Positions 1,394 to 6,511 of a DNA stretch of 14,019 bases are shown here, piece after piece. Origin of the DNA: Microbacteriaceae bacterium (lineage in GTDB: Bacteria > Actinomycetota > Actinomycetes > Actinomycetales > Microbacteriaceae); assembly GCA_025463665.1 (NCBI GenBank), contig JAODAY010000320.1:1-14019 (forward strand). The letters are read 5' to 3'. The stretch's first letter is position 1. Each line of letters begins with the position of its first letter. The notes under the pieces were generated by a model that saw nothing but the letters and a program-made list of their open reading frames with translations, made no database searches and was not told the DNA's origin. A program made the translations under genes and the position numbers.

Positions 1394-2887
1394 TTAGTCG
1401 TTGCCGTGCCCGTTGCGTGCCAGATGGTCGAGAACCGCCGCTGCGAAGCGACGCCCCCGGTCTGCATAGTCGGTGAATTGATCCATGGATGCCGCGGCCG
1501 GGGCGAGCAGCACGGTGTCACCCGGGTGGGCGAGACCTGCAGCCAATCGCACAGCGTCGCGCATGACCTCTTCAGTGTCGGTGGACTCGACCTCAAAGAC
1601 CGGCAGCCCCGGCGCGTGTCGCGCGAATGCCTTTCTCAGCTCCTCCCGGTCGACGCCGATGATGACGGCGCCGGTGAGCCGCGGCACGTGCCGTGCAACG
1701 AGGTCGTTGACGTCGACGCCCTTGAGCAGGCCGCCCACGACCCAGACAACGGAGGGAAGCGACCGCAGGGCCGCGTCGGCGGCGTGCGGATTGGTGGCCT
1801 TCGAGTCGTCGACCCAGACGACGCCAGCCCGGGTCGCGACGGTCTCGGTGCGGTGGTGGTCGATCTGGAACGTCGCGAGCGACGCTCGGATGACCTCGGC
1901 CGAGACGCCGTACGCTCTCACGAGAGCCGACGCGGCGAGCACGTTCGCGATCGAGTGCGGGGCGGAGAGCCCGGCGGCGGCGAGCTCGCCGTGCGTGGTG
2001 AGTTCGGCAGCCGCGTTGTGGCGGTCCTCGTGGAACGCGCGATCGACGATCAGGTCGTCGACGACGCCGAGGTCGCTCGGACCCGGCGAGCCGAGGCCGA
2101 ACCCGATGGCGCGGCATCCGTCGACCACATCGGCGTTCTCGACCATGCGCCTCGTCGCGTCGTCGGCGAGGTTGTAGACGCACGCGACACGCGTATTGTC
2201 GTAGACCTTGGCCTTGGCCTGGGCGTAGGCCTCGCTCGAACCGTGCCAGTCGAGGTGGTCGTCGGCGAGGTTGAGGCACACGCTCGCGAATGGCGACAGC
2301 GCGCCCTCCGGATAGCGGTTCGCCCAGTGCAGTTGGTAGCTCGAGAGCTCGACTACGAGCACGTCGAAACCGATGGGGTCGCGCACGGCGTCGAGCACCG
2401 GCACCCCGATGTTGCCCACGGCGGCGACCCGATGGCCGGCACCGGCGAGCAGGTGGGTCGCGAGCTGCACCGTCGTCGTCTTGCCGTTGGTGCCGGTCAC
2501 CATGATCCACTCGGCCGCCCGCACCTTGTCGCGCACCCGCCAGGCGAGTTCGATGTCTCCCCATACCGGGATGCCGCGGGCCTTCGCCCAGACGAGGATC
2601 GCGTGATCCGGGTGGAACCCCGGTGACACGACGATGAGCTCCGGGTCGAACTGCTCGAGCCGTGACGGAACGCCGTCGAGGCCGGGCTGGAGGAGAAGCT
2701 CGGCGCCGATGACGCCGACCAGGTCGACGCGCTCCTCCGGTGCGGAGGCTGCGACGACGAGCACACTCGCCCCGAGCTCGACGAGGGTGTCGGTGGCGGC
2801 GAATCCGGTCATGCCGAGCCCGAGCACCGCCGCGCGCAGCCCGCTCCAGTCGGCGTGCCAGCTGGTCAGGGTCGTCAGGTCGGTCAC
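1394..2887 (-). CDS. murD: MurD, UDP-MurNAc-L-alanine (or glycine) : D-glutamate ligase
   Basis: MurD is the cytoplasmic ATP-dependent ligase that adds D-Glu to the UDP-MurNAc-amino acid precursor. In the 497 residues, the N-terminal nucleotide-type fold has GLGMTGFA near 23-30. The central ligase domain has the P-loop TGTNGKTTT at 131-139, then VGNIGVP at 158, ELSSYQL at 180, [11 protein letters not shown] at 206 and an AKAK lysine motif near 224 that holds the expected carbamylated lysine. The C-terminal domain has DDSKATNP and GGLLKG. The start is GTG 2887, which overlaps the mraY stop as GTGA. The open frame continues far upstream of this point, but only in the shadow of mraY. Length and motifs are normal. 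In Microbacteriaceae the first stem residue is often glycine rather than alanine, so the natural substrate could be the glycine form (inference). Confidence 0.95.
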
Positions 2888-4005
2888 AGCGCCGGTGCCT
2901 TCGCCGTCGCCCACTCGAGGTAGAAGATGCCGACGCCGACCGCGATGAACAGCCCGGCGATGAGCCAGAATCGCACGACGACCGTGATTTCGGCCCACCC
3001 CTTGAGTTCGAAGTGGTGGTGCAGCGGACTCATGAGGAAGATCCGCTTGCCCTTCGTGATCTTGAAGTAGGCGCGCTGCAGGATCACGGACCCGGTGACG
3101 ATGAGGAACAGGCCGCCGATGAGCACGAGCAGAAGGTCGGTGCGGCTGAGCAGCGCGAGCGCGGCGAGAGCGCCGCCGAGGCCGAGCGAGCCGGTGTCGC
3201 CCATGAAGATCTGCGCGGGCGACGTGTTCCACCAGAGGAACCCGATGAGGCTGCCGACGATGCAGGCCGCGATCACCGCGAGGTCGAGCGGGTCGCGCAC
3301 CTGGTAGCACTTGAATGCGAGGTCGGGGTCCTGGAAGACGTTCGGGTTGAAGCAGGACTGGTTGTTCTGCCAGAACCCGATGAAGATGTACGACGAGATC
3401 GCGAGGATCGACGCGCCGGTCGCCAGACCATCGAGCCCGTCGGCCACGTTCACGCCGTTCGAGGCGCTCACGACGATGACGTTGACCCAGAGCGCGAAGA
3501 GAATGGCGCCGGCGATGCTGCCGAAGAACATCAGGTCGAGCCACGGGATGTCGCGAACGCCGGAGATCACGGTCGAGGCCGGCGTGAGACCGGTATCGGG
3601 GTCGGGGAAGTTCATGGCGAGCACGGCGAAGATCGTGGCGACGATGACCTGTCCGGCGATCTTCGACCAGCCGCCGAGCCCGAGGCTGCGCTGGTTGCGG
3701 GTCTTCAGGAAATCGTCGAGGAACCCGACGAGCCCGAGACCGACCATGAGGAAAATGACGAGGAATGCGACGAGGGTGAACGGCTCGCCGGCGACGAGGT
3801 GGCCGAACAGGTAGCCGAGCACGGCCCCGATGATGAAGACGATGCCGCCCATGGTCGGCGTGCCGCGCTTCGCGTGGTGCGACTGCGGCCCGTCATCACG
3901 GATGAACTGACCCCACCCGATGCGGTTGAACAGCTTGATGAACAGCGGTGTGGTGAGGAGGGTGAAGATGAGCGAGAAAGCGGCTCCGGCCATTAGCGCG
4001 ATCAT
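2884..4005 (-). CDS. mraY: MraY, phospho-MurNAc-pentapeptide translocase
   Basis: MraY is the integral membrane enzyme that transfers phospho-MurNAc-pentapeptide to undecaprenyl phosphate, making lipid I. The 373-residue protein has about ten membrane segments and all the family signatures: KRGTPTMGG at 46-54, LDDFLK at 96-101 with the paired Asp, [12 protein letters not shown] at 186-197, FMGDTGSL at 267-274 and the cytoplasmic [12 protein letters not shown] at 326-337. The start is ATG 4005, which shares ATGA with the stop of the upstream murF-like gene. The reading frame stays open for another 56 codons, but these are an out-of-frame shadow. A loop of about 25 residues rich in Cys, Asn and Asp (roughly 215-240) between membrane segments is longer than in the E. 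coli enzyme. The identification is secure. Confidence 0.96.
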
Positions 4006-4970
4006 GCGTTGATAGTTCCGATCCGGTTTCCGAGCGAGCGCAGGTCCGCAGTCGCGGAGGGTTTGAGGAGGACGACGGCCCCACCGGGCGGGCCGCCCGA
4101 GCGGAGGACGGTTTCGCCGAGCACAGCGTAGGCCTCCTCGACGGTGTCCACGAGCACGGACTCGCCGTCCCACGAGCCCTCGAGGCCCGCGGCGTTGTGG
4201 ATGTGCCTGGCCGACTGCCCGACCACGACGAGCTGCGACACGTTGAGACGCACGACGAGGCGACCGATCCGGTCGTGGGCCTCGCGCACCTCCTGGAAGT
4301 CGGTCTCCCCGTCGAGGTCGAGTTCGCCCAGCACGGCCACCGACGTGGTGCCGTCGGTCGTCGCTTGGGCGAGAGCCTTGAGCGCCGCCGAGACGGAGGC
4401 CGGGGTGGCGTCAAGGGTGTCGTCGATGAGGACGACACTGGGCGCGAGGTGCGAGACGCGCATGTCGAAGGGTGCGGGCGCGACGTCGACGATTGCCTCG
4501 GCGGCGGTCGTGGCATCCACACCGCACTCGACCGCGACGGCGACTGCCGCAAGCACGAGGGGCACGACGGACTCCCCGACGATGGCCGTGCGGACCGCCA
4601 CCGCGGAGCCGTCTGCGGTGTGGGCGGTGAAGGTGGTGCCCGCGAGGGAAGTGTCGATGTCGGAGGCGTGGAGGTCGCTCTCCGGCGACAGTCCGACGCG
4701 CACGATGCGGGTGCCGAGCGAAGCGGTGCGCGCGGCGACCGCCGCGTCATCCGCATAGCCGACGACGAGCGCGCTCGACGGCAGGGAGTCGAGCACCGGG
4801 GCGAGAAGAGCCGCCGAGGATGGGGCCGCGTCCAGCACCACGACGACATCGGGGTTGCCGGTCGTCATGGGGAGGGTCGTGACGGTGTGACGCCGCGCCG
4901 ACGCGCCGAGGGCGGCAGACACGAGCAGGCCGGCCGTCTCCCCACGACGGCCGGCGATGGCGATAATCAC
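4002..4970 (-). CDS. Truncated, degenerate MurF-like protein
   Basis: The gene occupies the murF slot between murE and mraY but is not a normal MurF. A usual MurF has about 450-480 residues in three domains. This product has 322. The N-terminal UDP-substrate domain is absent. It opens directly at a broken P-loop, AGRRGETAG (6-14), where family members have GKT/S. The stretch carrying the metal-binding Glu/His and catalytic lysine motifs is deleted. The YNANP loop reads LDATP (186-190). Relics remain: GYADD (71-75) for [17 protein letters not shown] (93-105), GTTFTAH (111-117) and [11 protein letters not shown]. The C-terminal domain (about 208-322) is well kept, with [18 protein letters not shown] and [19 protein letters not shown]. 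The start is GTG 4970, overlapping the murE stop as GTGA; GTG 4976 is also possible. The open frame and both overlaps argue against a decaying pseudogene. I infer a non-catalytic, possibly structural, role. Confidence 0.85.
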
Positions 4971-6511
4971 GCCCACCCGGCTTCGACGAGCGCCGCCTTG
5001 GCCTCTTCGCGCGCGGAATACGGCGTGCGGACGCCCTCGATGTCACGGTAGTCCTGGTGGCCGGGACCGGCCCAGAGGATCGAGTCCCCCTCCTGCGCCA
5101 GTGCGACGGCGACGCGGATGGCCTTCTCGGGCGGGCTCACCTCGTGCAGCTCGGCCGGCTCGGATGCGAGCGCGGCACCCTCGACGAGCGTCGCGCGGAT
5201 GGACGCGGCATTCTCGAACCGGGGGTGGTGGTCGGTGATCACGAGGATGTCAGAGCCTTCGGATGCCACGCGGGCCATGTCATGGCGCTTGGTGGCGTCG
5301 CGGTCGCCGTCCGCACCGAAGACCATGATGACCTTGCCGGTCGTGAACGTGCGCACGGCGGCGAGAGTGTTGAGAAAGGCGTCGGGGCTGTGCCCGAAGT
5401 CGACGTAGAGCGAGGGGCCGCGGTCGCCGGAGACACGCTCGGTGCGTCCGGGCAGGTAGGCGTCGATGCGGCCCGACTGCTCGAGGGCGTGACCGATCGC
5501 CTCGAGTTCGAAGCCGGCCTCGACGAGCATGACGATCGCGAGGGCGCCGTTGGCGGCCATGTGGCGGCCGATGATCGGCACCTGGGTCGCGATGGAGCGA
5601 CCGTCGGGGCCGGTGAGGGTGAACGCCGTGTGTGACGCCTGCTCGTCGGTGATGTCGACCGTCCACTCGGCCGGGACACCCGGGGTGGAGGAGATCGTGG
5701 TCACCGGGATGCGGCTCTCGTCGACGACCCGCTGACCGTAGGGCGAGTCGAGGGAGACAACGCCGCGCTTGCCACGCTCGGGCTCGAACAGGGGCAGCTT
5801 GGCGTAGAAGTACTCCTCCATGTCTGCGTAGTCGTCGAGGTGGTCGTGGCTCAGGTTGGTGAAGGCGACGACGTCGAAGAGGAGGCCGTCGACGCGGTGG
5901 CGACTGAGTGCCTGGGCGCTGACCTCGACGACGACGGCGCGCACCTCGTGCTCGCGCATGCGGGCGAGCAGTGCGTGCATCTCGCTCGCCTCGGGGGTCG
6001 TGAGCCGGCTGACGACGTTGATGTCGCCGATGTGGCGTTCCGCGGTCGAGCTGAGGCCCGTCACGAGCCCGAGCTGCTTGAGGATTCCCTCGAGGAGGTA
6101 CGACGTGGAGGTCTTGCCGTTCGTGCCGGTGGTCGCGAAGAGCAACGGCGGTTCCTCGTTGGTGCGGTAGACCCAGGCGGAGATCTCGCCGAGGGCGGCG
6201 CGGGGCGAATCCACGATGACGATGGGCAGACCGGTGTCGGCGGCGAGCTCGGCGCCGGCGGCGTCGGTCAGCACGGCCACCGCTCCCCCGGCCTTGGCCT
6301 CGGCGGCGTAGGAGGCGCCGTGGCTGTGCGCACCCGGCATGCCGACGTAGAGGTCGCCCGGGTGCAGGTCGCCCGTGCTCAGGGTGACTCCGGTGATCTC
6401 GACGCCGTCGAGGGACCCGCGGTGTTCGAGGGTGAAGGCACTGACGAGACCGGCGAGCGACCTTGCCGATGGATGCTCCGGACGTAGCACCGGGGGGATC
6501 CGAGCGGTCAC
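4967..6511 (-). CDS. murE: MurE, UDP-MurNAc-dipeptide ligase adding the third stem residue (probably not meso-DAP)
   Basis: MurE is the cytoplasmic ATP-dependent ligase that adds the third amino acid of the stem peptide. The 514 residues have the N-terminal domain (about 20-115), the P-loop TGTNGKTST at 128-136, TTPEA at 171, VEVSAQAL at 195-202 (EVSSHAL in many relatives), FTNLSHDHLDDY at 217-228, carbamylation-site Lys238 in YFYAK, and the C-terminal GADGDRD at 399. The residues that read the third amino acid are unusual. DNPR of diaminopimelate enzymes is DHHPR at 427-431, and the GKGHE motif is GPGHQ at 482-486, so the diaminopimelate-contacting Glu is Gln. This suggests a substrate other than meso-DAP (Lys, Orn, DAB or homoserine). 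The start is GTG 6511 with GAGA a few bases upstream. It lies 43 bases after ftsI and overlaps the murF-like gene by four. Confidence 0.94.
   Translation of the reverse strand: MTARIPPVLRPEHPSARSLAGLVSAFTLEHRGSLDGVEITGVTLSTGDLHPGDLYVGMPGAHSHGASYAAEAKAGGAVAVLTDAAGAELAADTGLPIVIVDSPRAALGEISAWVYRTNEEPPLLFATTGTNGKTSTSYLLEGILKQLGLVTGLSSTAERHIGDINVVSRLTTPEASEMHALLARMREHEVRAVVVEVSAQALSRHRVDGLLFDVVAFTNLSHDHLDDYADMEEYFYAKLPLFEPERGKRGVVSLDSPYGQRVVDESRIPVTTISSTPGVPAEWTVDITDEQASHTAFTLTGPDGRSIATQVPIIGRHMAANGALAIVMLVEAGFELEAIGHALEQSGRIDAYLPGRTERVSGDRGPSLYVDFGHSPDAFLNTLAAVRTFTTGKVIMVFGADGDRDATKRHDMARVASEGSDILVITDHHPRFENAASIRATLVEGAALASEPAELHEVSPPEKAIRVAVALAQEGDSILWAGPGHQDYRDIEGVRTPYSAREEAKAALVEAGWA

Follow-up and report, generated by a model that had tools for sequence, protein, structure and literature searches.

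A MurF remnant with a selected C-terminal core in Microbacteriaceae that carry a membrane-anchored MurF-like ligase

Here we show that the murF slot of a Microbacteriaceae bacterium holds a remnant of MurF without its catalytic parts, in which purifying selection acts strongly, at the protein level, on a 41-residue core within the C-terminal domain. MurF is regarded as essential, as an enzyme with a purely catalytic function and as a drug target. The DNA analysed (the window: 14,019 nucleotides) is contig C283 of a 2.05-Mb draft genome that consists of 400 contigs and is 63.7% complete. Judged by the names attached to its protein matches, its relatives are Conyzicola and other Microbacteriaceae. 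That the remnant is real and selected is very probable. We further lean towards the explanation that MurF had a second, non-catalytic docking role, exerted through a patch with the pattern EGSW.GES, and that this role survives in a pseudoenzyme after the swap to another ligase.

Results

The remnant frame

The remnant lies on the minus strand at 4002-4970 (322 residues), in the slot between murE (4967-6511, minus strand) and mraY (2884-4005, minus strand), both of which are full length by profile matches. Along this strand the gene order is mraZ-, mraW-, ftsL- and ftsI-like frames (assigned by eye), murE, the remnant, mraY, murD and ftsW. The GTG start (4970-4968) overlaps the TGA of murE (4969-4967) and the TGA of the remnant (4004-4002) overlaps the ATG of mraY (4005-4003), so that the frame, its coordinates and its GTGA and ATGA couplings are just as described in a first-pass annotation of this DNA. 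The same annotation had reported a gene some 150 residues too short, devoid of the N-terminal substrate domain and of the catalytic motifs, and this is borne out at each point. A full MurF in the murE-mraY slot of genome G046 counts 467 residues; the TIGR01143 murF profile matches the remnant over positions 182-411 of 418 only (81.5 bits, below the cut-off of 288.6), and the Pfam profile Mur_ligase_M over positions 112-200 of 200 only (under its cut-off). GRRGET is found in place of GxxGK[TS] and LDATP in place of YNANP, and the N-terminal domain, the P-loop, the carbamate-Lys segment and YNANP are all missing. What is left of the middle (ATP-binding) domain, residues 1-168 (4467-4970, minus strand), has lost its catalytic motifs and evolves nearly neutrally.

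The C-terminal domain had been called intact. Its fold is indeed retained in the predicted model (mean pLDDT 94.9), for which Foldseek returns MurF 4qf5 as best PDB match (TM 0.80 by query length). Strong constraint, however, is confined to about 41 residues, and the catalytic loops have decayed here too. The constrained core (EAHDRIG ... EGSWDGES; 4158-4283, minus strand) has a dN/dS of about 0.1-0.2 and includes the EGSWDGES patch (4158-4181, minus strand). With its fold kept, its catalytic residues lost and purifying selection acting (on the 41-residue core only), the remnant is a Mur-ligase pseudoenzyme. This agrees with the earlier proposal of a MurF-derived pseudoenzyme that is kept, as opposed to a neutral pseudogene or an assembly deletion.

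A homologue of the remnant, P0002 (323 residues, 68% identical), is located on an unrelated 145-kb contig, and 49 proteins of at most 330 residues occur among the 120 protein matches listed, a few of them being fragments at contig ends. A scan of contigs with the remnant as query gave one locus only, at 35% identity.

Remnants in related genomes

The murE-mraY slot was read in 39 genomes, our own included (12 genomes at first and then 27 of 28 further ligase-bearing genomes; in the remaining one a contig end interrupts the slot), and all 39 hold an open remnant frame of 139-337 residues. The set comprises 38 genomes with the membrane ligase described below and G048, whose ligase is inferred; left out of the counts were G693 (slot cut by a contig end) and G004 (82% complete, with the new ligase, a full MurF and an mraY over cut-off all not found). 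In each of the five sister genomes whose slot is readable the loss recurs, and it extends to other genera; such a comparison had been proposed in the first-pass annotation.

The N-terminal, UDP-MurNAc-peptide-binding domain is deleted in 39/39 remnants. None of them has YN..P or AK.E[IL] (0/39 for both), and one (G048) has the P-loop. In the slots read, the extent of the deletion differs by genus: remnants of genus g42 keep the first MurF residues and then jump to the C-terminal domain, those of Conyzicola start at the former P-loop, and those of g67 have only 139-142 residues left. The overlap with mraY is of the 4-base ATGA type in ten of the first 12 remnants, measures 7 bases in G001 and is absent from G003. 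A full MurF occupies the slot in G046 (which has the genus code of G117 and G658) and in G088 (genus code of G590).

Selection on the core

Calculation of dN/dS along the frame, another check suggested beforehand, has a split outcome, with strong constraint on the 41-residue core and near-neutral change in the rest. Among four Conyzicola genomes the ratio is 0.08-0.21 in the core and 0.10-0.20 in murE; for the tail it amounts to 0.44-0.65, for the middle-domain remnant to 0.67-0.99 and for the region of the lost YNANP loop to 0.32-1.10. Core versus rest gives 0.12 against 0.69 in g1, 0.11 against 0.46 in g80 and 0.20 against 0.62 in g74 (g31 provided one usable pair, g42 none). Over 14 chosen pairs, the core shows 91 nonsynonymous against 174 synonymous differences and the rest 1283 against 933 (p 3e-13); the two Conyzicola pairs among these were picked by hand and are not independent of each other, as they cross on the tree. 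Synonymous divergence in the core (dS about 0.6) is similar to that of the neighbours' genes, and codons inside EGSWDGES differ synonymously between genomes at constant residues. Of the 68 columns around the core, 12 do not vary among the 39 remnants, and EGSW.GES accounts for seven of these 12. Canonical rows have ELG in the catalytic loop, each of its positions being conserved in at least 28 of 29 rows; in the remnants this ELG has decayed.

The EGSW.GES patch

EGSW.GES is unbroken in 39/39 remnants from about five lineages. Among distinct MurF rows of the family, 27 of 31 have EGSW.GE; of the other four, two are copies located outside the dcw cluster and two have variant sequences (QGSWNNE and EGAWDGE). 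In the family of Arsenicicoccus, EGSW followed by G..E variants is seen in 4/10 rows. Given the absence of the patch from 4/4 MurFs of other families and from an extra MurF of G001, EGSW.GES is not a general MurF motif, and since it is found in the active dcw MurF of relatives without the new ligase, it predates the swap. In the remnant model the patch forms a helix-to-strand loop between helix 252-263 and strand 270-274, and the lost catalytic loops follow strands; judged from this model topology, the patch would face away from them. The best reading is that of a putative protein-binding (docking) patch that is older than the swap. For the scaffold between MurE and MraY put forward in the first-pass annotation, the data go no further than this putative patch.

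A MurF-like ligase with hydrophobic helices

Our draft genome yields six Mur_ligase_M matches: murE, murD and the remnant (window), murC (contig C322), folC (C206) and a ligase on contig C29. The complete MurF that the first-pass annotation had expected elsewhere was not found by profile search in this 63.7%-complete draft, nor in the finished relatives G002 and G003. Its other branch, in which another Mur ligase adds D-Ala-D-Ala, came nearer: a MurF-like ligase anchored in the membrane does exist, next to a divergent Ddl, and its complementarity with MurF and its ddl neighbour suggest that ligases of the C29 type carry out this addition.

The C29 ligase has 514 residues and matches TIGR01143 over positions 65-402 only (187.1 bits, below the cut-off of 288.6). 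It lacks the N-terminal UDP-binding domain and has helices in its place. In the C. lurida homologue (515 residues) the first 171 residues are helical in the model (mean pLDDT 91.1), and in the C29 ligase hydropathy alone places hydrophobic segments within residues 1-149. GSYGKTSTK, EMG, AK.E and YN.NP are invariant in 54 aligned relatives, and the closest solved sequences are all MurF. Direct BLASTP between the remnant and the new ligase gave no meaningful match; what links the two is their matches to the family profiles. Membrane-ligase relatives are also named among the protein matches in Nocardioides, Aeromicrobium, Marmoricola, Gordonia and Mycobacterium species, and in one genome the ligase is in two pieces (G815:C50:14315-15969), either by a gene break or by an assembly error.

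Directly after the C29 ligase comes the divergent Ddl homologue (149 bits, cut-off 245.65) and not a gatD glutaminase, so that by its neighbourhood the ligase is not of the MurT/GatD type. The order ligase, divergent ddl, DUF3515 gene, thiL is found in 10/10 family genomes with the whole locus (our C29 plus nine). Three genomes with a canonical Ddl were examined, and there the canonical ddl comes before this DUF3515 gene and thiL, so that the ligase-ddl pair occupies the old ddl locus. Ddl over cut-off is present in 8 of 20 genomes, namely seven without the new ligase (six with a full MurF, plus G085) and G001. Most of these 20 genomes, with or without the swap, also have a third Ddl-like gene at 201-236 bits, below the cut-off (L002/L008); as this further gene occurs in both groups, the divergent Ddl need not be the sole Ddl.

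Distribution of the ligase and of full MurF

In a draw of 120 genomes of the family, MurF over cut-off was present in 110. Matches to the new ligase at 1e-25 occurred in 26, of which nine were strong (1e-138 or better) and 17 were ordinary MurF. A full MurF is absent from 8/9 genomes with the C29-type ligase (Fisher p 5e-10), and the ten genomes without one are these eight, G048 (where the contig breaks off immediately upstream of the divergent ddl) and G085 (78% complete, without an mraY over cut-off). In a larger draw of 398 genomes the ligase was detected in 39, from 7/85 genera; full MurF was checked in those 39 only, the two-way count being that of the 120-genome draw, and was present in one, G001. 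An ordinary second MurF is thereby rejected as a general explanation, as G001 alone has one. Its operon (L132, 5763-9690) consists of a complete murF, an alanine racemase gene (alr) and ddl, and is separate from the membrane ligase and the remnant. In G034 (96% complete) the only MurF match (L072, C16) adjoins a Ddl and a VanX-like frame (by eye) and is without EGSW; murE and mraY of its dcw slot were not found in the approximately 1.36 Mb searched of 3.3 Mb.

Outside the family, two further strong ligase cases, G203 and G392, came from a draw of 394 genomes at class level; protein matches place both in Arsenicicoccus. In that family MurF over cut-off is present in 56/59 genomes, the exceptions being G203, G392 and G543 (match cut); apart from the contig-cut G543, Arsenicicoccus is the sole genus of its family without a full MurF, and it has the ligase. 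Here (L207, L208) murE runs straight into mraY, murF having been lost cleanly with no remnant. The membrane ligase and divergent Ddl of G203 and G392 are located elsewhere, without DUF3515-thiL neighbours within approximately 8 kb.

Number of swaps

A tree of MraY (73 rows; rows under 250 residues or without mraY (L072) were left out) requires six label changes, at least four of them forced by strongly supported branches, and a tree of MraY plus MurE requires five, again with at least four forced. The grouping of all 39 in one clade is rejected (AU p 3e-7 and 2e-47). These trees suggest about five MurF swaps in the family, with a sixth in Arsenicicoccus, the one that left no remnant. G590 together with g80, and g42 together with Conyzicola, could each represent a single event, which the two trees test weakly (AU p 0.18 and 0.050 for the former pair, 0.56 and 0.045 for the latter). 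The membrane ligases of the family form one clade. Within it the ligase of G590 groups with Conyzicola and g42, with its MraY near that of g80, and this discordance speaks for horizontal spread of the ligase inside the family.

Discussion

Taken in order, D-Ala-D-Ala addition would have passed to a MurF-type ligase with hydrophobic helices instead of the UDP-binding domain, which lies with the divergent Ddl at the old ddl locus (our contig C29). The old murF then lost its catalytic parts through decay and through deletions whose extent varies by lineage, and the C-terminal Rossmann-like core, above all EGSW.GES, stayed under purifying selection. The patch, we suppose, docks MurF into a Mur/MraY/MurG assembly, and the remnant, whose translation is coupled to that of MurE and MraY on either side, would keep this docking job. 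Several observations count against such a docking role. The short g67 remnant has a core at 0.17 and a rest that, at 0.23, is almost as constrained (4/28 pairs usable), the residues before EGSW are much changed in g31 remnants, G001 kept a 219-residue remnant despite a full MurF elsewhere, and two-thirds of the longer remnants are near-neutral, like a gene on its way out. Moreover, Arsenicicoccus lost murF without a remnant, so use of the new ligase does not always require the docking job.

It might be argued that a useless murF is simply decaying, slowly and neutrally, with in-frame deletions at its N-terminal end and a frame held open only by the ATGA coupling of mraY. The coupling overlaps retained in nearly all slots, the widely variable remnant lengths and the dN/dS outside the core (0.46-0.69 in three genera, 0.67-0.99 in the Conyzicola middle domain) are in line with this. 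Coupling keeps a frame, however, and not its residues: the core stands at 0.08-0.21 with ordinary synonymous change, the seven residues of EGSW.GES are constant in 39/39 remnants from about five lineages, and G003 kept its remnant without an mraY overlap, which makes this course of events unlikely. We give slightly less credit still to the idea that the remnant serves the new membrane ligase, or its Ddl, as a regulatory or accessory subunit. It does accompany the ligase in 38/38 readable family cases, but EGSW.GES is also present in the dcw MurF of relatives without the new ligase, hence predates the swap, and Arsenicicoccus has the ligase without a remnant.

That the conserved stretch works as nucleic acid rather than as protein, for example as a regulatory element of mraY, is highly improbable: despite its position upstream of mraY in the same operon, the EGSWDGES codons vary synonymously at constant residues and the core dS is like that of the neighbours' genes. 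An assembly or sequencing deletion, named in advance as a possible refutation and conceivable in a fragmented draft (400 contigs, 63.7% complete), has a negligible chance, given that similar remnants occur in one-contig genomes (G002, G084) and in several genera, next to the 68%-identical P0002 on its 145-kb contig. With the same kind of remnant in finished genomes, we reject it as the cause of the truncation.

For the docking role that we favour, there is some background in the literature. Contacts of MurF with MraY, MurG and MreB are reported in PMC6420597, PMC3187750 and PMC4929429. In Bordetella pertussis a MurE-MurF fusion with MurG as scaffold places MurF in a Mur assembly that is cytoplasmic and located at the membrane (PMC6420597); unlike the situation described here, both enzymes are active and there is no dead MurF. 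PAP11, the MurE-like subunit of the plastid-encoded RNA polymerase, is likewise, going by the titles of PDB entries, a Mur-ligase fold within another assembly, but it concerns another Mur ligase, another host and another process. The dcw MurF (TIGR01143), ancestor of the remnant, shares with it the gene position, the C-terminal fold and part of the middle-domain fold; it differs by its N-terminal substrate domain and its ATP, carbamate and YNANP motifs, all absent from the remnant, which retains a non-catalytic patch only. By title, the openly licensed literature contains nothing on such MurF remnants in Microbacteriaceae; within it, MurF with pseudoenzyme gives trypanosome work only, Conyzicola with peptidoglycan gives none, and murF loss gives mostly muscle proteins and one paper on Buchnera.

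The replacement ligase resembles MurT, a subunit of lipid II isoglutaminyl synthase, in being related to Mur ligases while having no UDP-binding N-terminal domain, and differs from it by its hydrophobic helices, its MurF-type YN.NP and the Ddl, rather than GatD, that follows. According to PMC6085368, MurT/GatD amidates lipid I and II and none of the UDP-linked precursors. By analogy the new ligase might act after MraY, an idea that we hold only tentatively, action on the UDP form being possible as well. The wider scenario appears doubtful, namely that D-Ala-D-Ala is added post-MraY to a lipid-linked MurNAc-tripeptide and that a dead MurF serves as adaptor docking MurE or its product to MraY, both repeatedly.

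Overall, the repeated loss of catalysis with one patch kept would separate a second role of MurF from its enzymatic one and show the residues involved. The long-debated Mur assembly, with MurF next to MraY, MurG and MreB, becomes genetically testable in a natural setting. Finally, the membrane-anchored ligase, which has a Ddl of its own, suggests that the addition of D-Ala-D-Ala can shift to the membrane, perhaps past MraY; if true, such a post-MraY addition would change the order of the textbook pathway.
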